Positions 47,514 to 59,629 of a stretch of DNA of 64,000 nt are shown piece by piece. Each line of letters starts with the position of its first letter. The stretch's first letter is position 1. Both the position numbers and the translations under genes were made by a program. The notes beneath the pieces are model-generated. The model was not told the origin of the DNA, did no database searches, and worked only from the letters and a program-made list of their open reading frames with translations. This stretch comes from Luteibacter sp. UNCMF331Sha3.1. Lineage in GTDB: Bacteria; Pseudomonadota; Gammaproteobacteria; Xanthomonadales; Rhodanobacteraceae. The DNA lies in assembly GCF_900109915.1 (NCBI RefSeq), contig NZ_FOBU01000002.1, forward strand, positions 761,170 through 825,169, in the 5' to 3' direction.

Positions 47514-47530
47514 GCGCCGCTTCGATACTC

Positions 47531-47562
47531 GCGAGAACGCCGCCGCAAGGCGGCGTTCTCGC
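47531..47562. terminator. Bidirectional hairpin between bamC and the minus-strand exported gene
   Basis: GCGAGAACGCCGCC/GGCGGCGTTCTCGC, 14-bp perfect stem with a GCAA tetraloop, 17 nt after the bamC stop and 1 nt from the convergent stop at 47564. No T run. Confidence 0.7.
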
Positions 47563-47563
47563 A

Positions 47564-48553
47564 TCACGGCTCAGGTAGGGCGCCAGGCGGCATCCGACTC
47601 TGGTCGGCGGGGACGTACTGGAACGTGGCGCGATCATCGATTGTAGCGGGCATGTTGAACCGGATGATGGGTAACCATTTGCCGGAGGCCGCCCGGAAGT
47701 CGATCTGGTCGAGTCGGGCACCGTCGATCCCCCCAGTGCCCGATTGATAGAAAAACGCCTCCAGTGGAATCGTGGTGTGGATGTCCTGCGGCCACTCTCG
47801 GACGAGCAGCTCGTTCCACCAATTGAACGCCATACCGCCCATGCCGCGAATGGTTTCGATGAACATCGTGAAGTTCGCCGCGCTGTGGGCATCGCCGATG
47901 GCGACGGGGATGCTGCAGGAGTACGCAAAGAGGGGAGACTCCTGGTAATAGGCCACGTACTTCGCTGCCGTATCGATGCCCATCTCGAAACAGGGCCTGC
48001 TTGTATCGGGATAAAGGGCGTGGCTGCCACAGCCGTTACGGTCTCTGCGATCCGTGTCGGCGTCGATCGGGTAGACGCAGACGACCTCCATCTTGTAGTA
48101 GGGGTCGAGGCGTCCGGCGCGGTCGGCGTAGAACAGCGGGATCAGCACGAAGCCGTGCGTATAGCGGCTGAGGTAGAGGCTCTCGAACTGGGCGTCGTGG
48201 CGCAGCCACGAAAAGGATACGGTGCCCTTGGGATTATTGGGGTTGGGATTCCACGCATGATAGTCGGGGCTGGATACCGTGGCGCGGAACAGGATCCCCG
48301 AACACAATACGACCGGCCGACTCGCGCCTCCGCAGTCTACTTGCGAGTCGTCGTAGCGAGCCTGCAGGTCGGCGGCTACTTTATTGCCGTAAACGTCGTC
48401 CTGTTCGGTGGGCTCGTCGCCGTTCGCGCGTACCCATCCGGGATGTTCGCGCTCGGCAGCGTACCGGGTCGCGCACGCTGATGTGACCAGTACGAAGGCG
48501 ACGAGCAGTGCCCGTAGGGTCGGCTGGAGTGAATTCAAACGTCCCTGTGCCAT
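47564..48553 (-). CDS. Halovibrin-like exported lipoprotein, paralogue 1
   Basis: 329 residues. Signal peptide ending in lipobox VTSAC (Cys at about residue 27), then a single domain shared with three other genes here. Family landmarks: DCGG, CSGILFRAT, YHAWNP, VSFSWLR, VVCVYP, NGCG, RPCF, YSCS, IPLEAFFY, DQIDF, PIIRF, ATFQY and DQS. Six cysteines are common to all four paralogues. From memory this resembles halovibrin HvnA/HvnB of Vibrio, secreted NAD+-glycohydrolases; untested here. Start ATG with GGAGG 5 nt upstream. It follows paralogue 2 by 99 nt, same strand. Confidence 0.7.
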   Translation of the reverse strand: MAQGRLNSLQPTLRALLVAFVLVTSACATRYAAEREHPGWVRANGDEPTEQDDVYGNKVAADLQARYDDSQVDCGGASRPVVLCSGILFRATVSSPDYHAWNPNPNNPKGTVSFSWLRHDAQFESLYLSRYTHGFVLIPLFYADRAGRLDPYYKMEVVCVYPIDADTDRRDRNGCGSHALYPDTSRPCFEMGIDTAAKYVAYYQESPLFAYSCSIPVAIGDAHSAANFTMFIETIRGMGGMAFNWWNELLVREWPQDIHTTIPLEAFFYQSGTGGIDGARLDQIDFRAASGKWLPIIRFNMPATIDDRATFQYVPADQSRMPPGALPEP

Positions 48554-48652
48554 GACATCCTCCCTGGATATCGATCCGCCACGCCGGCGTCGCCGTCGCT
48601 TCAACGATGCCTGTGCCTGTCTATCCGCAGCGCCACCGGCCGTGGGCCTGTA

Positions 48653-49606
48653 TCACGGGACGGCCTGGTCGCTCTCGTGGTATTCGAAATGGGCCTCTCC
48701 GTTCGGAGCAGTGGGAAGCGTGACGCGGATGATCGGCCGCCAGATACCCCTGCTGGTGACATAGAAATCGTTCTGATCGCCACGGGATTGTGTGTCCCCC
48801 TCCGTGCCGGCGAGAAAGAAGAACGATTCCAGCGGTATGGTCGCTTCGAGGTTCGTCCCCCATGTCGAAATGATGGCCTCGTCCTGTGATTCGAAGAACG
48901 CGCCGCGATAGAGGTGCTGTACGTGCATGGCTTCCTTGAAGAGGGCCGCCGAATCCGGCGTGCCGCTCACCATCGTGAATCCACACGACTGATCGCGTTT
49001 GCTCGTCCCCGACGGCGCATCGTTGTAGTCCGCCAGCCATGCCACGCCGGTGACGATCGGCGGAGACTTCCGCTGGCAGGGCACGCTTTCGGTCGGGTGG
49101 TCGCGGTGCGGCCCGCAGCCGGCTTCGGAGCGCAGATCGGTAGCGCCGTCCATCGGGAAGTAACACAGCACCTCCATCTCGAACTTGCCTTGCGGCAGAT
49201 GGAAGACAGGCCACACGGTGAACCCGTGGTTGTAGCCATAAGCGAGTTTCTTGAACGACGCGTCGCGGCGAAGGAATGAAAAAGACACGCCGCCCGGCTT
49301 GGTACTGTTCGGGTTCGGATTCCAGGAATGGTAATTCTCGCTGAAGTTCCCGGTGGCCCGAAGGAGGATGCCGCTGCAGAGGAAGACCGGCGTGCGTGCG
49401 CCGTCGCAGTCCGCATTCAACGGGTCGCTGTCGGCGATGGCATCGAATCGGGCCTGCATGGCGGCAGCGGCGGCCTGTCCTTCTGCCGTATGCTCCGCGC
49501 GCACGCGCGCAGACGGTGTCGGCGGTGGTTTCACCATGCAGCCCGCGGACGCCATGCACAGCGCGAGCAGTAGAAGACGAGCGAATGGGTATCTCGGCGA
49601 TTTCAT
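48653..49606 (-). CDS. Halovibrin-like exported lipoprotein, paralogue 2
   Basis: 317 residues. Signal peptide with lipobox CMASAGC (Cys at about residue 23), so probably lipid-anchored. Shares with its neighbour DCDG, CSGILLRAT, YHSWNPNP, VSFSFLR, NHGFTVWPVF, VLCYFPMDGATD, AGCG, VPCQ, SCGF, IPLESFFF, DQNDFY, IIRVTLP and HFEYHESDQA. AGGAGG precedes the ATG at 5 nt. Of the four, it is closest to the Pseudomonas HvnC-type sequences I recall. First gene of the pair, preceded by 215 bp shared with the end of fdxA. The mature protein has an even number of conserved cysteines (six), suiting an oxidising compartment. Confidence 0.7.
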   Translation of the reverse strand: MKSPRYPFARLLLLALCMASAGCMVKPPPTPSARVRAEHTAEGQAAAAAMQARFDAIADSDPLNADCDGARTPVFLCSGILLRATGNFSENYHSWNPNPNSTKPGGVSFSFLRRDASFKKLAYGYNHGFTVWPVFHLPQGKFEMEVLCYFPMDGATDLRSEAGCGPHRDHPTESVPCQRKSPPIVTGVAWLADYNDAPSGTSKRDQSCGFTMVSGTPDSAALFKEAMHVQHLYRGAFFESQDEAIISTWGTNLEATIPLESFFFLAGTEGDTQSRGDQNDFYVTSRGIWRPIIRVTLPTAPNGEAHFEYHESDQAVP

Positions 49607-49796
49607 ACGAGCCTCCTGGCAGACGAACTTCCTTGCGGGCGCTGACCGGCGGTCGTCCGATGCCCTCGCCGGGCAGGCGTTGCGCGGTCGGACATCGGTG
49701 TCCAGTCAGTGCGCGCAGTGTCACGCGCGAACCCGTGCGACAACATACCCTGTACGTCGTAGGCTGCGCGTAAGCGGCAAATCCGGGTCCGGGTGG

Positions 49797-49814
49797 GGCG
49801 GGTTTCAACCCGCC
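49797..49814. terminator. Small hairpin downstream of fdxA
   Basis: GGCGGGTT/AACCCGCC with a 2-nt loop, 8 nt past the fdxA stop on the minus strand. No T run on that strand. The rest of the gap 49607-49796 shows no gene; it should hold the promoter of paralogue 2. Confidence 0.4.
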
Positions 49815-49821
49815 AGGGGCA

Positions 49822-50145
49822 TCAGCGCTCGAGCAGCGCGAGCTTGTCCGGCTTGTTTTCCCAGTCCTTGGAGTCGGGCAGGCCATCCTTGCGCTCGGTG
49901 ATCACAGGCCAGCCTTTCGAAAGCTCGGCGTTGAGCGCCACGAACGCTTCCTGGCCCGCGGGGACGTCGTCCTCGGGGTAGATGGCGTTGATCGGGCATT
50001 CCGGCTCGCAGAGGGTGCAGTCGATGCACTCGTCCGGATTGATCACCAGGAAGTTCGGGCCTTCATGGAAGGCATCGACCGGACATACCTCGACGCAGTC
50101 CGTGTATTTGCACTTGATGCAGTTGTCGGTAACGACAAAGGTCAT
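49822..50145 (-). CDS. fdxA: Seven-iron ferredoxin FdxA
   Basis: 107 residues, the standard length. Carries a [3Fe-4S] and a [4Fe-4S] cluster: [18 protein letters not shown] and [16 protein letters not shown] supply the Cys ligands, and the C-terminal extension ([20 protein letters not shown]) wraps the fold as in Azotobacter ferredoxin I. Essential electron carrier of unknown partner in many proteobacteria. [13 protein letters not shown] start. Its 5' end faces the tRNA-Glu gene, 28 bp away on the same strand. Confidence 0.94.
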
Positions 50146-50173
50146 GCGAACGGTTCAGCGCCGGGGGGAAAGA

Positions 50174-50249
50174 TGGTGCTCCCTACGAGGTTCGAACTCG
50201 TGTTCCCGCCTTGAGAGGGCGGTGTCCTGGACCACTAGACGAAGGGAGC
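50174..50249 (-). tRNA. tRNA-Glu (anticodon CUC)
   Basis: 76 nt including encoded CCA. Acceptor GCTCCCT/AGGGAGC, D-arm with AGTGG, anticodon stem CCGCC/GGCGG with loop CTCTCAA (anticodon CTC), T-arm GTTCGAA, discriminator A then CCA. Reads GAG. A minus-strand promoter lies just upstream. No integrase or att-like duplication of the 3' end is visible nearby. Confidence 0.95.
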
Positions 50250-50277
50250 GGGTCGTACTGGGTGTACGGAGCGCGCT

Positions 50278-50305
50278 AGTATATACAAATTCCGTCGCCC
50301 GGCAA
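50278..50305 (-). promoter_or_regulatory. Promoter of tRNA-Glu
   Basis: On the minus strand TTGCCG (-35) and TATACT (-10) separated by 16 bp; the -10 ends 29 nt before the mature 5' end. This is the best sigma70 match I found in the window. Confidence 0.7.
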
Positions 50306-50433
50306 TGGTTTTCCATGCCGCTCGTCGGATTGGGTCGAATTCGTTACATTTGGCCCATCCATCCCGCCGCCGGCCCTCCGGTACGGGCAGCTACTTGAAC
50401 GGGCGCGGATGCGCTCGCCAGGATTCCGACCGC

Positions 50434-51795
50434 TTGAATTCCGAAACCAGGAGTGAGCTTTCGCCGGTAGTGCGCATCATCCCGCGCGATCAGCACTCCA
50501 TTTCCCGCAAGAACATCAGCAAGGCCGCGTTGCGCGTGCTTTACCGCCTGCACGACGCCGGCTTCGCCGCGTACCTCGTCGGTGGCGCGGTGCGCGACCT
50601 GCTGCTCGGCGGTCACCCCAAGGACTTCGACGTCGCCACCAACGCCACGCCGGACGAGGTGAAGGGGCTCTTCCGGAACTGCAGGCTGATCGGTCGCCGG
50701 TTCCGGCTGGCGCATGTCGTGTTCGGTCCCGAGATCATCGAGGTCGCGACCTTCCGGGGAACGGGCGAAGAGGGCGGTGAAGGCGATCGCCATATCGTCG
50801 ACGGGCGGATCGTGCGCGACAACATCTGGGGCACGATCGAGGAAGACGCGGTGCGCCGCGATTTCCGGGTGAACGCGCTCTACTACGACATCGCCGACTT
50901 CAGCGTCCGCGACTACGTCGGCGGCATGCAGGATCTCGAAGAACGCACCATGCGGCTGATCGGCGATCCCGAGCAACGCTACCGCGAAGATCCGGTGCGC
51001 ATGCTGCGTGCGGCACGTCTCGCGGCCAAGCTCGGCTTCACGATCGACCGGGAAGCGCTGGCACCGTTCGCCACGCTGGGGCACCTGCTCGGCGAGGCCG
51101 CGCCCGCCCGTCTGTTCGACGAATCGCTGAAGCTGTTTCTCGCGGGCCACGGCCTGAAGAGTTTCAAGATGCTGGAGGCCTGCGGTCTCCTGCGTTTCCT
51201 GTTCCCGGCCACCGCCCGCGCGCTCGAGCGCGGCGACGTCGCGCTCCGCGCGCTCGTGGAACAGGGCTTGGCGAATACCGATGCACGCATCGCCGACGGA
51301 AAGTCGGTGACGCCGGCGTTTCTCTATGCCGTGTTGCTGTGGGGCGAGGTGCGCGACCAGGCGCATGGCTGGATCGCGCAGGGTTACGACGCCAACGAAG
51401 CCTGGCAGCGCGCGGCGGTGCATGTCGTGGGCGAGCAGTGCCAGCGCGTCGCGATTCCCCGCCGTTTCACGTTCACGATGGAAGAGATCTGGGCGCTGCA
51501 GCCGCGTTTCGAGCAGATCCATCGCAAGCGCGTGTTCCGGCTGATGTCGCATCCGCGCTTCCGCGCGGCGTTCGATTTCCTTCTGCTGCGTGCGCACGAA
51601 TCGGAGCGCATGCGCGAGCTCGGCGAATGGTGGGCCCACGCGCAACAGCTGCCGCCCGACATGCTGGCGGCGGCGCTCGGCGGTGGCGGCGTGCCGCCCC
51701 ATGAGCCCGTCGCCTCCAGCAGCGCCCCGGTGCGCAAGCGCCGCCGTCGCCGCAAACCCGCGGGCCGTGGGAAGGGCGACTCGGGCGGCGCGTGA
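50434..51795 (+). CDS. pcnB: Poly(A) polymerase I
   Basis: 453 residues. Adds 3' A tails to RNA, speeding decay. Nucleotidyltransferase core: LVGGAVRDLLLGGHPKDFDVATNATPDEV (G-S-like VGGAVRD and D-x-D, about residues 48-75), FRNCRLIGRRFRLAHVVFGPEIIEVATFR, DNIWGTIEEDAVRRDFRVNALYY, RYREDPVRMLRAARLAAKLGF. Basic C-terminal tail (KRRRRRRKPAGRGKG) for RNA contact. No ATG precedes the core; TTG at 50434 has AGGA 8 nt upstream, GTG at 50470 (VRIIPRDQ) is the alternative. The family motifs distinguish it from CCA-adding enzyme. Overlaps folK. Confidence 0.92.
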   Translation: MNSETRSELSPVVRIIPRDQHSISRKNISKAALRVLYRLHDAGFAAYLVGGAVRDLLLGGHPKDFDVATNATPDEVKGLFRNCRLIGRRFRLAHVVFGPEIIEVATFRGTGEEGGEGDRHIVDGRIVRDNIWGTIEEDAVRRDFRVNALYYDIADFSVRDYVGGMQDLEERTMRLIGDPEQRYREDPVRMLRAARLAAKLGFTIDREALAPFATLGHLLGEAAPARLFDESLKLFLAGHGLKSFKMLEACGLLRFLFPATARALERGDVALRALVEQGLANTDARIADGKSVTPAFLYAVLLWGEVRDQAHGWIAQGYDANEAWQRAAVHVVGEQCQRVAIPRRFTFTMEEIWALQPRFEQIHRKRVFRLMSHPRFRAAFDFLLLRAHESERMRELGEWWAHAQQLPPDMLAAALGGGGVPPHEPVASSSAPVRKRRRRRKPAGRGKGDSGGA

Positions 51796-52277
51796 GCGTT
51801 CGTGCGTTCATCGGTCTCGGAGGCAATCTCGGCGATACGCGGCGGACGCTCGAGGCGGCCATCGCGCGCCTCGACGGTCACGCGGCGATCCGGACGACCG
51901 GGCGGTCGCGGTTCTACCGTACGCCGCCCTGGGGTCACGTGGACCAGCCCGATTTCATCAACGCGGCCATCGCGGTCGAAACGTCGCTGACACCGCACGA
52001 GCTGCTCGACGTGCTCCTGGAAACGGAGCGGGCCTTCGGACGCGTGCGCGACGGCGAACGCTGGGGCCCCCGCACGCTCGACCTCGACCTGCTGGCGTAC
52101 GACGCGCTCGCATGGCACGACGAGCGGCTGACCGTGCCGCATCCGCGCATGGCCGAACGCGCCTTCGTATTGCTGCCGCTGGCCGACATCGAACCCGATT
52201 TTTTCATCGTGGGCCAGGGGCGTGTATCGGCGCTGCTGGAAACGCTCGATCAGGCCGGCTGCGACGTTCTTCCGTAG
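51792..52277 (+). CDS. folK: 6-hydroxymethyl-7,8-dihydropterin pyrophosphokinase
   Basis: 161 residues. Transfers pyrophosphate from ATP to 6-hydroxymethyl-dihydropterin in folate synthesis. AFIGLGGNLGDTRRTLEAAI, SRFYRTPPWGHVDQPDFINA, ETERAFGRVRDGERWGPRTLDLDLLAY (Mg-binding DxD) and VPHPRMAERAFVLLPL are the signatures. Start GTG overlaps the pcnB stop (GTGA), the usual pcnB-folK arrangement. Confidence 0.95.
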   Translation: MSVRAFIGLGGNLGDTRRTLEAAIARLDGHAAIRTTGRSRFYRTPPWGHVDQPDFINAAIAVETSLTPHELLDVLLETERAFGRVRDGERWGPRTLDLDLLAYDALAWHDERLTVPHPRMAERAFVLLPLADIEPDFFIVGQGRVSALLETLDQAGCDVLP

Positions 52278-52334
52278 CGGCGACGTCCGGGCTTAGCATG
52301 CGTTCGACGCCAGGATGGCGATCGGTGGACGGCC

Positions 52335-53420
52335 ATGGACGGACAGAGCGACGAACGCATCTTCGTGCAGATTCCGGCGTATCGCGATCCGGAGCTGATC
52401 CCCACGCTCGTCGATCTGGTCCAGAAGGCGCGCTACCCGGAGCGCCTTCGCGCCGGGGTGTGCTGGCAGCACGACGAAGGCGAGCGCGTCGATGCGTTCG
52501 CGGCGGCCGGCTTCCGCGTGTCCACCGACGTGCATGCGGGGCATCTGCGGCACCGCCTCGAAAAGCTCGGGGCCGTCGTGTGGATCTACGACTACGCCAT
52601 GGCGGAATCGCGCGGCTGCGGCTGGGCACGGGCGATCGCTCAACAGGCGTTCTCGGACGAGGCCTACACATTGCAGCTGGACTCGCACCACCGCTTCGCC
52701 CGGCACTGGGACAGCGACCTGATCGGCATGCTCGAGGCGCTGCGCCGGCGCAGCAGGCGACCCGTGCTGGTGGCGCACCCGCCCGCCTACGAACCAGGGC
52801 AAGCCGTGCCATCCCGTTGCGACGAGGGCTACCAGATCGATTTCGTGGCGTTCGGTGGGCCGGGTGTGATCCGGACCCGGTCGACGCCCATCGCGTATCC
52901 ACCCGGGGCGAACGCGCCGATCCGTGCGCGGTTCTTCAGCGGGGGCTTCGCGTTCGCCGACGGCACATTCGTGCGCGACGTGCCGGCCGACCCGGATCAC
53001 TACTTCAACACCGAAGAGATCACCCTCGCCGTACGCGCCTACACCCACGGCTACGACCTGTTCCACCCGCATCGCCATGTCGTCTGGCACTACTACGGCC
53101 GTCCGGACGCGCCAAAGGTCTGGGACGATCAGGCGCTCGCCCTCGCACGCGGCGAGACGGTGCTGGATGGGGCGCGACTGGGCCTGCGCGCGCTGTCGGA
53201 CGTGGAGAACGCGTTCGGCATGCACGGCGACCCGGTGCCCGTACCCTGGCTGGGGCGGCGGCGGAGCCTGGCGGATTACGAGCGCTATGCAGGGATCAGC
53301 TTCGCCCGGCGCGAGGCCACGCTGCAGACCCTTTGCCGGATCGAGCCATCCGACGACGATTTCGGGCTGGATCGGCGAAGCTGGGAGGCCCGTCTCCTGC
53401 CTGCGCCCCGAATTCCTTGA
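52335..53420 (+). CDS. GlcNAc-type glycosyltransferase (PF11397-like)
   Basis: 361 residues, cytoplasmic, no membrane segment. FVQIPAYRDPELIPTLVDLVQKA start, the donor-metal motif LQLDSHHRFARHWDSDLIGMLEAL (DSHxRF, about residue 115), and RARFFSGGFAFADGTFVRDVPADPDHYFNTEEITLAVRAYTHGYDLF with the catalytic-site Glu pair. This is the family that includes Dictyostelium Skp1 GlcNAc-transferase; bacterial members have unknown acceptors. It sits between folK and panB with 57 and 54 bp gaps and looks like a lodger in a cofactor cluster. Codon usage matches its neighbours. Confidence 0.75.
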   Translation: MDGQSDERIFVQIPAYRDPELIPTLVDLVQKARYPERLRAGVCWQHDEGERVDAFAAAGFRVSTDVHAGHLRHRLEKLGAVVWIYDYAMAESRGCGWARAIAQQAFSDEAYTLQLDSHHRFARHWDSDLIGMLEALRRRSRRPVLVAHPPAYEPGQAVPSRCDEGYQIDFVAFGGPGVIRTRSTPIAYPPGANAPIRARFFSGGFAFADGTFVRDVPADPDHYFNTEEITLAVRAYTHGYDLFHPHRHVVWHYYGRPDAPKVWDDQALALARGETVLDGARLGLRALSDVENAFGMHGDPVPVPWLGRRRSLADYERYAGISFARREATLQTLCRIEPSDDDFGLDRRSWEARLLPAPRIP

Positions 53421-53474
53421 GATACCGCCCGGACAGGCGGACAATTCCGGTTTCACCCAACGAGGCGACAGAGC

Positions 53475-54302
53475 GTGTACGTCGAAAAAACGAGTGCGCC
53501 GGCGCGTAAGCCGGTGACCGTGCCGGGCCTGAAGGCGATGAAAGCCGAAAGCCGGAAGATCGTAATGCTCACCGCCTACGACGCGAGTTTCGCCGCGCAG
53601 CTGGACGCCGCCGGGGTCGACGTGGCCCTGGTCGGCGACTCCCTCGGCATGGTGGTGCAGGGGCGTGCGAGCACGCTGCCGGTGACGGTCGACGACATGG
53701 TCTATCACACGGCCGCCGTGGCACGCGGTCTGTCCGCGACGCTGCTCGTCGCGGATCTGCCCTTCATGAGCGACCGGGACGTGCCGCATGCGCTCGCCGC
53801 CGCCACGCGACTCGTCGCCGAAGGCGGCGCCGCGATGGTCAAGATCGAGGGCGCCGGCCGCATCTGCGATGTGATCGCCGCGCTCGCCGAACGCGACATC
53901 CCCGTGTGCAGCCACCTCGGTCTGACGCCCCAGTCGGTAAACCGCTTCGGTGGGTACAAGGTGCAGGGCAAGACGCAGGAAGCCGCCGACAAGCTGCTGG
54001 CCGACGCGAAGGCCGTCGAGGCCGCTGGCGCCGATCTGCTGGTGCTCGAATGCGTGCCCTCGGCACTCGCCGCCCGCATCACCGCGGAGCTGTCGATCCC
54101 GACGATCGGCATCGGTGCGGGCGTAGACTGCGACGGACAGGTCCTCGTGGTGTACGACCTGCTGGGCCTGACACCGGGCAAGCGTCCGAAGTTTTCGAAG
54201 GATTTCCTCGCGGGACGCGATTCCATCCAGGGCGCCATCGGCGCCTACGTCGAGGACGTGCGCGAACGGCGCTTCCCTGGCGTCGAGCACAGTTTCACCT
54301 GA
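53475..54302 (+). CDS. panB: Ketopantoate hydroxymethyltransferase
   Basis: 275 residues. Methylene-THF plus 2-oxoisovalerate to ketopantoate, first step to pantothenate and Co[73 protein letters not shown] (metal and substrate site) and [24 protein letters not shown] are intact. Start GTG at 53475. panC follows after 10 nt. Confidence 0.95.
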
Positions 54303-54312
54303 GGGCAGCACG

Positions 54313-55158
54313 ATGCAGACCGTTACAGACGCCGCCGCGATTCGTGCCGCGATCCGCGGCTGGCGCGCCGCCGGCCAGAACGTCGGCTTCGTGCCGACGA
54401 TGGGCAACCTTCACGCCGGACACCATTCGCTGCTGAAGCTGGCGCGTGCCCGTGCCGACCGTGTCGTCGCCAGCGTGTTCGTCAACCCGACGCAGTTCGG
54501 TCCCGGCGAGGACTTCGAGCGGTATCCCCGCACGCTGGCACAGGATCAGGCCGGCCTTGCCGAGGCCGGATGCGACATCCTCTTCGCGCCCGAGGTCTCG
54601 ACCATGTACCCGTTCGGCCCGGCGAGCAGCGTGAGCATCCACGTGCCGGTCGTCACCGACACGCTGGAGGGCGCCCATCGGCCGGGGCATTTCGATGGCG
54701 TTGCCACGGTGGTCGCCAAGCTCTTCAGCCTCGTGCAGCCCGATATCGCCGTGTTCGGCCAGAAGGATTTCCAGCAGCTGAAGGTCATCGAGCGCATGGT
54801 GGCCGACCTCTCGTTGTCGGTGAAGGTCATGTCCGCTCCCACGCTGCGCGACGACGACGGACTGGCCCTGAGCTCGCGCAACCAGTACCTCTCGTCGCAG
54901 GAACGGGCGAGAGCGCCGCAGATCTACGCCACCCTGACCCAGATGCGTGAGCTGTTCCGGCAAGGACACGCCTGGCAGGCACTGGAGCAGGCGGCGAGGG
55001 CGCGCCTGGAGCGGGCGGGTTTCGTGCCCGACTACGTCGCCATCCGTCGTGCCGAGGACCTCGGCGAACCCGGCGTGGACGAGCGTGAGGGGCTGGTCGC
55101 CCTGGTGGCCGCCCGGCTGGGTGCCACCCGCCTGATCGACAACCTGCCGTTCGACTGA
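54313..55158 (+). CDS. panC: Pantothenate synthetase
   Basis: 281 residues. ATP-dependent ligation of pantoate and beta-alanine. [23 protein letters not shown] (HxGH nucleotide motif), [41 protein letters not shown] and [16 protein letters not shown] are family signatures. Follows panB closely, so they are co-transcribed. Confidence 0.95.
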
Positions 55159-55295
55159 ATCCCTTCACATACGGGGACTTGCGTTTCGAAGCGCGGTCCC
55201 CCATAAAGCGCACCGACAGAGGAGCCCATGCGACGGACGGGCAAGCCTCCGTTACAATGGGCGTTTTGTATCCCCAGTTGACCCCAGAGACCGCC

Positions 55296-55676
55296 ATGCA
55301 CCTCAACATGCTCAAGTGCAAGATCCACCGCGCCACGGTGACTCACGCCGAGCTGAACTACGAAGGTTCGATCGCCATCGACGGCAACCTGCTCGACGCC
55401 GCCGGCATGCGCGAGTACGAGCAGATCCACGCCTGGAACATCAGCAACGGCGAACGCTTCGTCACGTACGCTCTGCGTGCGGAAGAGGGCTCGGGCATCA
55501 TCTCGGTGAACGGCAGCGCCGCGCGCCGCGTTTCCACGGGCGACCTCCTGATCATCGCCGCCTTCGCCGGCCTCTCCGAGGCGGAACTCGCCAAGTACCA
55601 GCCGGACCTGGTCTACGTGGACGCGGACAACCGCATCACCCACACGAACCACTCGATCCCGAAGCAGGCGGCGTAA
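55296..55676 (+). CDS. panD: Aspartate 1-decarboxylase proenzyme
   Basis: 126 residues. Makes beta-alanine from aspartate; the pyruvoyl cofactor arises by self-cleavage at Gly24-Ser25 in [30 protein letters not shown] and [18 protein letters not shown] are diagnostic. Separated from panC by 137 bp that contain TACAAT at 55253-55258, so it may have its own promoter. With panB and panC it completes pantothenate synthesis apart from panE. Confidence 0.95.
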
Positions 55677-55767
55677 AGCGCGCCGCGCGTCGCGCTTCCA
55701 TACAATCCACTTGCGCTGCACTGCGGTAACATGGCCGCTTCCCCTCCGTTGCAGCCAAGTGGAAGCC

Positions 55768-57402
55768 ATGGAATCAAAGCACGCCCCGTTGCCCTCGTTC
55801 GCAGAGCACGCCGCCCGTCTCGCCAAGACGCATCTCCGCGAACTCGTCCAGGACGAGGCCCGCGGTGAACGTCTGCGCAGGCGGGTCGGTCCGATCCTCC
55901 TCGACATCTCCCGCCAGAAGCTCGACATCGCGGCGCTCGACGCCGTCGGCGGATACATCGACGGCACCGGCTGGAAAGCCGCCCGCGACGCGATGTTCGA
56001 AGGCAAGCACATCAATACGTCCGAAGACCGGGCCGTGCTGCACACCGCGCTCCGCGGTGGTGCGTCGCGTCATCCGGCGGCGCCGAAGGACGTCCAGAAG
56101 GACGTCGCCGACGCACTCGATCAGATGGAACTGCTCGTCAACGCCGTGCACGAAGGCAAGGGCGCGTCGGTCGGCCTGATCGGTGGCGTCACCGACATCG
56201 TCAACATCGGCATCGGTGGCTCGGACCTCGGTCCGCGCCTCGCCGTGCACGCGCTCAACCAGTTCCACGTGAAGAGCATCCGCAGCCACTTCCTCACCAA
56301 CGTGGACGGCCAGGCCGCCTACGACCTGATGAACACGCTCGATCCGTCGCGCACGCTGGTCATCCTGGTCTCCAAGAGTTTCAACACGCAGGAAACGCTC
56401 CTCAACGGCGGCGTCTTCCGCAACTGGATCCTCAAGGCCAACGGTGGCGACGAGGCGAAGACCTCGAAGCACTTCATCGCCGTCAGCTCGAACGTCGAGG
56501 CCGTGAACAAGTGGGGCGCTTCGCAGGTCCTGCCGATGTGGGATTACGTCGGCGGCCGCTTCTCCCTCTGGTCGGCGGTGGGCGCATCCATCGCGTTCGG
56601 CATCGGCATGAAGGGTTTCCGCGAGCTCCTCGCCGGTGCCGCCGAGGCCGACGACCATTTCCGCGCGGCGGAGTGGCAGGACAACCTTCCGGTGCTGCTG
56701 GCGATCGTCGAGTTCTGGAATCGCAACATCCTCGGCCGCAGCAGCCGCGCCGTGGTGCCGTACGTCGACGCGCTGGGCGACCTGCCGTCGTACCTGCAGC
56801 AGCTCGAGATGGAAAGCCTCGGCAAGCACGTGCATCCCGACGACGGTACGGAAGTCACCCAGTCGACGGTACCCGTGGTCTGGGGCAGCATCGGCACGAA
56901 CGCGCAGCACGCGTATTTCCAGGCCCTGCATCAGGGCACGGACACCGTGCCGCTGGAGTTCATCGGCCTCGTCAAGCCGGCGCATCCGCTGCGCGAGAAC
57001 CAGGACGTACTGACGTCGAACCTGCTCGCGCAGGCCGCCGCCCTCTCGCTGGGCAAGACGTTCGAAGAAGCGCTCGCGGAAGCGAAGACGGGCACCGACG
57101 ACGAGCGTCGCGCGCTCGCCGCGCAGCGCACGTTCAAGGGCGACCGTCCGAGCACGGTCTTCATGCTCGACTCGCTCACGCCGCATTCGCTGGGCGAGCT
57201 GATCGCGCTCTACGAGCACAAGGTATTCATGCTCGGCCACCTGTGGGGCATCAATGCCTTCGACCAGTGGGGTGTGGAACTCGGCAAGGTGATCGCGAAG
57301 CAGATCTACCCGTCGCTCGCGAACGACAAGGACGCCGGTGACCTGTCGCAGTTCGACGGTGCGACGCGAGGCCTCATCAAGGCGATCCGCGACCGCCGCT
57401 GA
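55768..57402 (+). CDS. pgi: Glucose-6-phosphate isomerase
   Basis: 544 residues. Interconverts glucose-6-P and fructose-6-P. VNIGIGGSDLGPRL, FLTNVDGQAAYDL, VSKSFNTQETLLN (Ser/Lys site), VGGRFSLWSAVG, SLGKHVHPDDG and the C-terminal HLWGINAFDQWGVELGKVIAK with the catalytic base region. ATG at 55768 after GGAAG. Ends at a strong terminator. Shares no overlap with panD (91-bp gap). Confidence 0.95.
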   Translation: MESKHAPLPSFAEHAARLAKTHLRELVQDEARGERLRRRVGPILLDISRQKLDIAALDAVGGYIDGTGWKAARDAMFEGKHINTSEDRAVLHTALRGGASRHPAAPKDVQKDVADALDQMELLVNAVHEGKGASVGLIGGVTDIVNIGIGGSDLGPRLAVHALNQFHVKSIRSHFLTNVDGQAAYDLMNTLDPSRTLVILVSKSFNTQETLLNGGVFRNWILKANGGDEAKTSKHFIAVSSNVEAVNKWGASQVLPMWDYVGGRFSLWSAVGASIAFGIGMKGFRELLAGAAEADDHFRAAEWQDNLPVLLAIVEFWNRNILGRSSRAVVPYVDALGDLPSYLQQLEMESLGKHVHPDDGTEVTQSTVPVVWGSIGTNAQHAYFQALHQGTDTVPLEFIGLVKPAHPLRENQDVLTSNLLAQAAALSLGKTFEEALAEAKTGTDDERRALAAQRTFKGDRPSTVFMLDSLTPHSLGELIALYEHKVFMLGHLWGINAFDQWGVELGKVIAKQIYPSLANDKDAGDLSQFDGATRGLIKAIRDRR

Positions 57403-57427
57403 GATCGCGCCGCCATCGGAAAAAATA

Positions 57428-57454
57428 GAACCGGCTTCGGCCGGTTTTATTTTG
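57428..57454 (+). terminator. Rho-independent terminator of pgi
   Basis: AACCGGC TTCG GCCGGTT stem-loop followed by TTATTTT, 27 nt past the pgi stop. Confidence 0.9.
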
Positions 57455-57561
57455 CTTGCCGATGACGACGCGAGGTCGCCTACGTCGTCCGGTGGGTCGC
57501 CATCGTCGCGCGATGCGCGCAGCATGGGCCATACATCGCAATCTCACGGAAGGAGAGGGCC

Positions 57562-58419
57562 ATGCATGCATCACGATGGTTGCGCTTCGCGTGCGCCGCG
57601 ACAACGGCCGTGCTCTGCGCCTGTCACGCGCCGGCACCCACGTCCCCGGTTACCTCCGCGGGCGCACGCGCTAGCGGAGAGGATGTCGCGCGCGAACTGC
57701 AGCGGCGCTACGACGACACGCGAACGGACTGTGGTTCCCCGACGGAGCCGGCCGTCGAGTGCAGCGGCCTCCTTCTGCGCGCGACGCAATGGCGGGAGGG
57801 CGAGCATTCGTGGATGGCTCCCGGACGACCGGCGGGCGTTTCGTTCTCGTGGCTGCGCCAGGATGCCAACGCCACCGGTGCGTTCTACGAGAACGGCTTC
57901 ATCGCGCACCCCGCTCAGACGGCTGCAGCGCTAGGTCTGCGGGCGCTGACGTCGCGCTGCGTGTATTACCTGAATGCCGTGACGAGTGGGGAGCAGGAGG
58001 ACCGCTGCCGCGTGCCGTGCGACGCGCAGGGCGTTTTCACCGCCGAGCAATTCGTGGATACGTTTCCGGCCGGCACGTACGGTTGCGCGTTTCGCGCGAC
58101 CGCCCGCGCGGACATGAACGACAAGCCGGCCGACGCGTGGATGCAGATGGTCGGCGTCCGGCGCATCTACCAGTACGCGGGCCACAACGAGGTGATCGTG
58201 GCCCCTTACGACGACATCGGCGCCGCGATGCCGGTCGAAGCGTTTTTCTATTACGGGTCCGGCTCGATCAGGGGGCTCGACGACGCGAAGAAAGATCAGA
58301 TCGACTTCAGGGATTCGACGGGCCGATGGGTTCCCGTGATCCTGTGGACACCGGCGGCATCGATCGGCGACCGCGCGACCTTCAGCTACGACGAGGCCGA
58401 TCAGGCGATCCTCGAGTAG
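57562..58419 (+). CDS. Halovibrin-like exported lipoprotein, paralogue 3
   Basis: 285 residues. Signal peptide with candidate lipobox VLCAC (Cys at about residue 21). Domain landmarks align with the minus-strand pair: DCGS, CSGLLLRATQW, EHSWMAP, VSFSWLRQDA, ENGFIAHP, RCVYYLNAV, DRCRVPCD, YGCAFRAT, MPVEAFFYY, DQIDFRD, VPVILWTP, ATFSYDEADQA. It is shorter than paralogues 1 and 2 in the middle. Strong RBS AGGAGAGG 5 nt before ATG. Stands after the pgi terminator, so has its own promoter (unidentified). Nearest relative is paralogue 4, 202 bp downstream. Confidence 0.7.
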   Translation: MHASRWLRFACAATTAVLCACHAPAPTSPVTSAGARASGEDVARELQRRYDDTRTDCGSPTEPAVECSGLLLRATQWREGEHSWMAPGRPAGVSFSWLRQDANATGAFYENGFIAHPAQTAAALGLRALTSRCVYYLNAVTSGEQEDRCRVPCDAQGVFTAEQFVDTFPAGTYGCAFRATARADMNDKPADAWMQMVGVRRIYQYAGHNEVIVAPYDDIGAAMPVEAFFYYGSGSIRGLDDAKKDQIDFRDSTGRWVPVILWTPAASIGDRATFSYDEADQAILE

Positions 58420-58621
58420 CGTCGGCGCGGATCGGCGTCGGCGCGGGCGGTGGTGCCCGGTCACCTTACCCGGGCTGGCTCGCTGCGATTGGCGGCGCCC
58501 CTGCCGCGTGCCTGTTGGATTGCGCCGCAATTTCAGGCGGTACCTCCGCGATGACGAGTGGCGCGCTGATACGATGCGCGCGGCCAATGAGGCCGGACTG
58601 CCATTCCAGGGAGGAATGATC

Positions 58622-59533
58622 ATGCGACATCCGATCCATCTCACGCTGCTGCCCGCCGTCGCAGCCTTGCTTTTCCCCCTCACCGCCATCGCTTCCACGA
58701 CGCCCGCGCGCGTCGACGACGCGCGGTTCGCTTACACCGTGCCGCACGATCCGTCGCACGCCGCCGCGGTGGCGGCGTCGACGCGCGACGGCGAGGCGGT
58801 CGCCGCCGAATTGCAGCGTCGCTTCGACGACCTGAGCGAGGACTGCGGCTCGCCCACTGCCGCGCCCGTGGAGTGTTCGGGCGTGCTGTTGCGCGCGACG
58901 CAATGGACGGCGGGGCAACACTCGTGGATGGCGCCGGGGCGATCCGCGGGCGTCTCGTTCTCCTGGCTGCGGCAGGACGCCAACTTCGACAGCGCGTTCT
59001 TCGCCAATGGCTTCATCGTCCATCCCGCCCGCATGGCCCGTGCACTGGGCTTCCTGCCGATCGAGTCCCGTTGCGTCTACTACATCAACGCGGTGACGAG
59101 TGGCGAGCCGTTCGATCGATGCCGCACCCGATGCGACGAGTGGGGCATCACCACCGCCCAGCAGTTCGTCGATCTCTTCGGCATCAACAACTACGGATGC
59201 TCGTTCCGGGCGATCGCCAGGCCCGACATGCACGACCAGCCGGCGGAGGCCTGGATGCAGATGGTCGGTGTCCGGCGCATCTTCGGTTACGGCGATTTCA
59301 ACGAAGTGATCGTCTCGCCTTACGACGACATCGGCGACGCCATGCCGGTCGAGGCGTTCTTCTACGACGACAAGGGGTCGACCAACGGCCTCGATGACGC
59401 GAGGAAGGATCAGATCGATTTCAGGCAGACCATCGGCCGCTGGGTACCCCTCATTCGCTGGACACCGGCGGCATCGACCGGCGAGCGTGCCATCTTCGAA
59501 TACATCGAGGCCGATCAGGCGATCGTGCGATAA
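58622..59533 (+). CDS. Halovibrin-like exported protein, paralogue 4
   Basis: 303 residues. Sec signal peptide (LTLLPAVAALLFPLTAIAS, cleavage near AIA-ST) without a lipobox Cys, so probably released rather than anchored. Then about 35 residues of linker and the shared domain: DCGS, CSGVLLRATQW, QHSWMAP, VSFSWLRQDANF, ANGFIVHP, RCVYYINAVTSG, DRCRTRCDEW, YGCSFRAI, MPVEAFFY, DQIDFRQ, WTPAAS and EADQAI. AGGGAGGA lies 7 nt before the second ATG at 58622 but abuts the first (58616), so I chose 58622. Closely similar to paralogue 3, indicating a tandem duplication. Confidence 0.7.
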   Translation: MRHPIHLTLLPAVAALLFPLTAIASTTPARVDDARFAYTVPHDPSHAAAVAASTRDGEAVAAELQRRFDDLSEDCGSPTAAPVECSGVLLRATQWTAGQHSWMAPGRSAGVSFSWLRQDANFDSAFFANGFIVHPARMARALGFLPIESRCVYYINAVTSGEPFDRCRTRCDEWGITTAQQFVDLFGINNYGCSFRAIARPDMHDQPAEAWMQMVGVRRIFGYGDFNEVIVSPYDDIGDAMPVEAFFYDDKGSTNGLDDARKDQIDFRQTIGRWVPLIRWTPAASTGERAIFEYIEADQAIVR

Positions 59534-59576
59534 ATCCCAACCCGGGTTCCCATCGATGTCGCGATCGTAGCGTCGC

Positions 59577-59614
59577 CGACGAACGAAACCGGCTTCCGCC
59601 GGTTTCGTTCGTCG
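59577..59614. terminator. Bidirectional terminator between paralogue 4 and parE
   Basis: 17-bp perfect stem CGACGAACGAAACCGGC/GCCGGTTTCGTTCGTCG with loop TTCC in the gap between the convergent genes. It serves both directions; no long T run. Confidence 0.8.
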
Positions 59615-59629
59615 ATCGTGGTCGTCCAA

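Follow-up and report, generated by a model that had tools for sequence, protein, structure and literature searches.

What do four paralogous exported proteins, rich in cysteine and encoded in two pairs on either side of a block of ordinary genes, do for the bacterium that carries them? The question arises from a stretch of 64,000 nucleotides (the window) of the genome of Luteibacter sp. UNCMF331Sha3.1 (contig NZ_FOBU01000002.1, positions 761,170 to 825,169), in which halovibrin-like genes 1–4 were found (Table 1). Our analysis makes it likely that they encode exported, cysteine-rich enzymes of the halovibrin family with a mono-ADP-ribosyltransferase (mART) fold, which bind and cleave nicotinamide adenine dinucleotide (NAD+), and perhaps act on a protein acceptor, outside the cell or on its surface. 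Their action is most probably directed at eukaryotic partners, and in Luteibacter the family seems to have multiplied at two fixed chromosomal sites. Homology, the match of predicted folds, residue conservation and the genomic pattern were computed; from these we infer NAD+ cleavage by the four proteins, the lipid anchor, surface display and the partner.

Four paralogues of the halovibrin family

An earlier note on the window had described four paralogous genes with common motifs and six matching cysteines, and had named the halovibrins HvnA and HvnB of Vibrio (Aliivibrio) fischeri as their relatives; all of this was borne out. All four reading frames were open over the spans given in Table 1, the starts of gene 1 (ATG 48553) and gene 4 (ATG 58616, in a frame open from GTG 58508) being preferred by judgement. 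In the four-way alignment, where the other three proteins were 41, 36 and 35% identical to gene 1, the motifs DC, CSGxLxRAT, HxW, VSFSxLR, PxExFF and DQxDF were present in all four sequences, and each mature chain contained exactly six cysteines, in matching columns; three disulfides formed from them are plausible. A search of the strain's own genome with the gene 2 protein retrieved genes 1, 3 and 4 with E values of 2e-51, 2e-17 and 5e-12 (the last in two pieces), placing the similarity among the copies far above chance. A fifth halovibrin copy was matched on a different contig, C10 (E 9e-17).

BLASTP against genes of A. fischeri gave E values from 2e-58 to 6e-22, and the kinship with halovibrins is therefore real. 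The A. fischeri genome used had three halovibrin matches, two of them uninterrupted (L082 and L083; the labels hvnA and hvnB were not assigned between them). Against L082, the four proteins gave E values of 1e-57, 1e-48, 3e-22 and 6e-22, with identities of 35% (gene 2), 32% (gene 1), 27% (gene 3) and 26% (gene 4); gene 2 was 36% identical to the L083 protein (E 2e-58). The third copy in that genome (G023:C2:519356-520183) had one in-frame stop. A tblastn search of plasmids with gene 2 also found Serratia marcescens genes annotated as hvnA and hvnB (halovibrin), with 36% identity. The V. fischeri halovibrins are cited as secreted NAD+-glycohydrolases that were initially taken for ADP-ribosyltransferases (PMC3510237). 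Membership of this family is of an already known kind and is not new in itself.

We failed to find a Pfam or NCBIfam model above chance for the four proteins, and a Pfam scan of 73 members of alignment A4 returned four single chance-level matches (best E 0.05). Neither the four proteins nor L082 had a PADLOC or PHROG match, and gene 2 had none in 50,697 phage records; an anti-phage system or a phage protein was thus unsupported.

A predicted CteC-like fold and a candidate active site

AlphaFold2 models of the gene 2 and gene 3 proteins (predicted local distance difference test scores, pLDDT, of 93.8 and 89.5, respectively) both had CteC, a ubiquitin Thr66 mono-ADP-ribosyltransferase of Chromobacterium violaceum, as their top fold match in the PDB according to Foldseek. 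This common match to an mART-type fold points to one fold for both pairs, consistent with the single domain that the earlier note had assigned to them. In the gene 3 list, every row below the two CteC rows had an E value of at least 0.5. At the sequence level, the halovibrin profiles A1, A4 and A2, run against PDB chain sequences at E values up to 10, found neither a related sequence nor a CteC entry. As far as the literature search shows, the link between halovibrins and CteC seems to be new; no paper naming both was found. In a viral fold library, a single entry fell below E 0.001 for the gene 2 model: the 219-residue viral protein G8DH01 of BFVD (E 3.3e-6; template modeling (TM) score of 0.61 on the target).

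In the gene 2 protein, the candidate active site comprised, in this order and in mature numbering, R60, S85/S87, D130 and E220. In the model, with the strands numbered by ourselves, the arginine was located on strand 1, the serines on strand 2, the aspartate just past strand 4 and the glutamate at the start of strand 5. The arginine was separated from the aspartate and the glutamate by 70 and 160 residues, compared with 69 and 155 in CteC. For CteC, NAD+ contacts by R65, T66, S68, R93, R113, D134, N139 and E220 are reported, and R65A, D134A and E220A abolished activity (PMC10810742); the Asp134–Glu220 pair is emphasised in PMC11281641.

Conservation was read in comparison rows from a pattern scan of a species-genome collection, in which 78 of 135 relatives were analyzed as loci, two of them from one A. 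fischeri genome. Among the 69 comparison rows, which include one Luteibacter row (L106), the arginine was present in 69, the aspartate in 66 and the glutamate in 68, while all six cysteine positions were filled in every row as well as in the four window proteins. Of the two residues that the earlier note had singled out, the arginine of the RAT motif was thus kept in every comparison row, whereas the glutamate of PxExFF was rejected as a catalytic residue: this position held E in 36 rows, Q in 20 (including both A. fischeri proteins) and other residues in 13. The glutamate of the 'NE' motif, the one conserved in 68 rows, is the better catalytic candidate on grounds of sequence; its candidacy is a new observation here.

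The proteins would thus be single-domain enzymes of the mART fold. The predicted active site is complete in genes 1 and 2; that of genes 3 and 4, with asparagine in place of aspartate, may be weakened or altered. The strand-1 arginine would bind NAD+ and the nicotinamide bond would be strained, glutamate and aspartate holding the ribose as nicotinamide leaves. The ADP-ribose would then be taken either by water (an NADase) or by a protein side chain (a transferase). Fold and residues suggest the first half of this scheme.

That choice bears on a rival reading, in which the physiological role of the enzymes is to ADP-ribosylate one particular protein in a eukaryotic partner (a fungus, plant, amoeba or insect), as CteC does with ubiquitin, NAD+ hydrolysis being a side reaction seen when the right acceptor is missing. 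CteC was by far the best fold match, and between strands 4 and 5, the site of its ubiquitin-binding insertion, the models of genes 2 and 3 have a long segment that contains cysteines and short helices. Among the named relatives are Photorhabdus, Xenorhabdus, Erwinia and A. fischeri, which are associates of insects, plants and squid. The original description of halovibrin as an ADP-ribosyltransferase (PMC3510237) also speaks for transfer. Against it stand the lack of detectable sequence similarity to CteC and the route of export. The proteins carry signal peptides, three are probably anchored, and a search of the genome for a type III export gate (HrcV-type) gave only one match, of 609 bits against a cut-off of 692, the E. 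coli and B. subtilis controls likewise remaining under the cut-off. No way into the host cytosol is therefore visible, and type III effectors were rejected as an explanation. We consider transfer as the physiological reaction rather unlikely.

Probable anchoring, genomic sites and degenerate copies

A signal sequence was recognised by inspection in all four proteins. The earlier note had taken three of them as probably lipid-anchored and had called this unusual. The first part holds in that genes 1–3 have a cysteine after the signal and gene 4 has none, although no strict lipobox was present; the second part does not. By our own rule, combining hydropathy and pattern, 50 of 67 scored open reading frames (ORFs) were lipoprotein-like, 33 with a strict lipobox (66 ORFs from Luteibacter and one from another genus; one has a false N-terminus from a slice cut). 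Among named loci outside Luteibacter, 49 of 97 distinct N-termini passed, 34 of them strictly and mostly from Pseudomonas, which rules out the anchor as a Luteibacter speciality. Thus, lipid-anchored halovibrins seem to make up a large part of the family, a part that is a new observation here. The four counterparts in the nearest genome, G020, which was used for counterpart and substitution-rate comparisons, were split as in the window, three with a cysteine after the signal and one without. Two GspD-type secretins were found over the cut-off in the genome of the strain. Three proteins, probably those of genes 1–3, would accordingly be lipid-anchored on the outer membrane and one released. The enzymes would thus act outside the cytoplasm, where cystines may stiffen them.

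The domain was found in 16 of the 233 genomes of the strain's family: 15 of the 23 Luteibacter genomes had it, but just 1 of the remaining 210. When the class was sampled evenly, only one of 369 genomes, the strain's own, contained it, so the family is patchy. Positive Luteibacter genomes had from 1 to 17 match rows, fragments included, and a cluster of four is therefore not the rarity in this genus that had been supposed. The 8-kb block separating the two pairs consists of ordinary genes (ferredoxin, pcnB, folK, N-acetylglucosamine (GlcNAc) glycosyltransferase, panB, panC, panD and pgi); ferredoxin, the glycosyltransferase, panB and pgi were confirmed by Pfam, the other names being read from the sequence. 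The block could be read in 22 of the 23 Luteibacter genomes. At site B these had halovibrin genes in nine (own included), an empty site in nine, other content in one and a site that was not judgeable in three. In the window, both sites contain halovibrin genes only.

Table 1. Halovibrin-like genes, their predicted active-site codons, and the two genomic sites (window coordinates)
Feature	Positions	Strand	Description	Predicted active-site codons
Halovibrin-like gene 1	47564..48553	minus	329 aa; probable lipoprotein, TSA-C	R 48284-48286; S 48215-48217 and 48209-48211; D 48062-48064; E 47810-47812
Halovibrin-like gene 2	48653..49606	minus	317 aa; probable lipoprotein, SAG-C	R 49358-49360; S 49283-49285 and 49277-49279; D 49148-49150; E 48878-48880
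Halovibrin-like gene 3	57562..58419	plus	285 aa; probable lipoprotein, LCA-C	R 57778-57780; S 57841-57843 and 57847-57849; N (usually Asp in relatives) 57973-57975; E 58189-58191
Halovibrin-like gene 4	58616..59533	plus	305 aa; signal peptide lacking a lipobox cysteine	R 58892-58894; S 58955-58957 and 58961-58963; N 59087-59089; E 59303-59305
Site A	47514..49821		between gene read as bamC and ferredoxin gene (fdxA); in 22 Luteibacter genomes, occupied by halovibrin genes in 10 (own included) and empty in 12	
Site B	57403..59629		between pgi and DNA gyrase B/parE-type gene; 22 Luteibacter genomes	
PF11397 GlcNAc glycosyltransferase gene	52335-53420	plus	E 5.6e-67; between folK- and panB-like genes	

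The gene read as bamC had no Pfam match at E 1e-4 and is named from sequence and place, as are the genes labelled gcvR, bcp and phoH. The PF11397 glycosyltransferase gene was present at the same place in some Luteibacter genomes and was not found there in others. In genome G015, site B from parE to pgi (L190:4949-6502) contained about 1.5 kb without a halovibrin match.

In the tree, which was read by clade supports only (the group test gave 500 of 500 shuffles as low), the four window proteins fell within a 51-row clade of Luteibacter (support 87). A clade of 23 (support 98) contained genes 3 and 4 and by reading comprised 21 site-B copies, the fifth copy and one copy on a short contig. Other Luteibacter copies stood elsewhere, one set beside Xenorhabdus (support 89). 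The pattern looks like local duplication after few acquisitions, and the two-site expansion is a new observation here. Two-domain halovibrin fusions were also encountered: one Luteibacter locus (L134:13031-19901, frames of 568, 610 and 570 aa), three in L101 (Pandoraea aquatica) and one each in L087 and L063. C-terminal parts longer than 400 aa were present in some copies of Luteibacter L132, L138, L169 and L106, and the one tested, that of L106, had no Pfam match. DUF2599 was found on relatives outside Luteibacter (L049 and L052).

The anchored copies could instead be nutritional, splitting extracellular NAD+ for the uptake of nicotinamide or ADP-ribose. The many ORFs that look lipid-anchored fit a tool that stays with the cell, and the window sites hold no gene other than halovibrins. 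Up to 17 match rows, divergence and active-site decay nevertheless agree better with a role specific to a partner, or in an arms race, than with housekeeping, and we regard a nutritional role as quite unlikely.

Active-site decay was seen in several copies. The aspartate position, read in 68 further domains (67 from Luteibacter and one from a different genus in the same family), held D in 53 and N in 11. The fifth copy had lost all five of R, S, S, D and E and, among 29 other conserved residues, 7, but had kept all six cysteines; this joint loss with the cysteines kept supports the five residues as the active site. Glutamate replaced the arginine in four Luteibacter domains that form a separate clade, and in one fused protein the second domain had lost four of the five residues. 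Some copies may thus drift into catalytically dead scaffolds; the inactive copies are a new observation here. The fifth copy (L158:6016-6864) adjoins a gene for a glycoside hydrolase family 19 (GH19) chitinase (L158:7180-8652, PF00182).

It is possible, though we hold it only tentatively, that genes 3 and 4, as well as the fifth copy, encode non-catalytic binding proteins on a cystine-stabilised scaffold. The asparagine of genes 3 and 4, the total loss in the fifth copy (placed by the tree in the site-B clade) and the glutamate-for-arginine exchange are in favor of it. Genes 3 and 4 nevertheless keep R, S, S and E, and the place of the fifth copy in the tree is unsure because of its long branch (1.42). 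Ratios of non-synonymous to synonymous substitution rates (dN/dS, NG86) against the nearer of two G020 genes were 0.26 for gene 3 and 0.24 for gene 4 (0.30 and 0.28 against the other), which likewise speaks against this reading. Against their G020 counterparts, genes 1 and 2 gave 0.11 and 0.12; the values for the four genes are rough since dS was 0.86–1.36, near 1. For comparison, pgi gave 0.10 and panC 0.05.

Several points weigh against the NAD+-cleaving, host-directed enzymes that we favor. NAD+ cleavage by genes 1–4 is a prediction from sequences and models, and the folds of genes 2 and 3 are those of predicted models. The Foldseek matches were moderate (TM 0.41–0.55; root-mean-square deviation of 7–8 Å over all columns). 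The proposed equivalence of residues with CteC was drawn from order, spacing and secondary structure. In gene 2 the serines follow the arginine at a distance of 25 or 27 residues compared with 32 in CteC; the spacings in genes 3 and 4 are 65 and 137 compared with 69 and 155, and both carry asparagine at the position where CteC D134A is dead. The serines were conserved in 69 and 67 rows, counts that are inflated because the loci were fetched with the VSFS pattern. For the fifth copy, the Fisher p of 0.003 is descriptive, the residue set having been chosen after the conservation table was seen. The lipoboxes of genes 1–3, judged by eye, are not of the strict [LVI][ASTVI][GAS]C type. As regards a host-directed role, the Pseudomonas aeruginosa relative PA1914 is reported to be dispensable for virulence in flies, and its secretion was not demonstrated (PMC3510237).

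Significance and comparison with known systems

Halovibrins are reported to have been first described in 1996–2001, yet these proteins have no Pfam or NCBIfam model and no related PDB sequence was found. Through the CteC-like predicted fold, a family about which little is known gains an active site that can be tested: the fold links halovibrins to a solved toxin–NAD+ complex and points to residues for mutation. It also suggests that the NAD+ hydrolysis reported so far may be just the side of a transferase that has been seen. The Luteibacter arrays offer a system in which the role of the enzymes can be tested; the genus has been reported from fungi and plants. A more far-reaching proposal, which we think quite unlikely, is that halovibrins form a sister branch of the CteC toxins that modify ubiquitin, one that is exported and armoured by disulfides. 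They would then be surface-anchored or released ADP-ribosyltransferases, each acting on a defined protein of fungal, plant or animal partners, multiplied in Luteibacter as a partner-specific repertoire at two sites, with inactive copies serving as decoys or binders.

The closest known systems are the halovibrins HvnA and HvnB of V. fischeri, to which the window proteins are homologous over the whole domain (26–36% identity) and with which they share six cysteines and an export signal. The R/S/D/E set of V. fischeri is matched by genes 1 and 2, whereas in genes 3 and 4 asparagine replaces aspartate and the loop from cysteine 4 to cysteine 5 is shorter. Both A. fischeri proteins fail the lipobox rule, in contrast to the cysteine after the signal sequence in genes 1–3, and the window genes stand in tandem pairs, unlike those of V. 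fischeri. P. aeruginosa HvnA (PA1914) has a halovibrin domain, 44% identical to HvnA and HvnB, and a C-terminal DUF2599 (PMC3510237), while in the window genes no further domain follows the halovibrin domain.

CteC shares its fold with the window proteins as far as the models predict. Candidate equivalents of its catalytic Arg, Asp and Glu occur in the same order and with similar spacing in genes 1 and 2, genes 3 and 4 having asparagine at the aspartate position, and its insertion between strands 4 and 5 has a possible counterpart in a segment of the window models. CteC is a type III effector (PMC10810742) to which the halovibrin profiles had no detectable sequence similarity, whereas the window proteins are cysteine-rich and exported by signal peptide.

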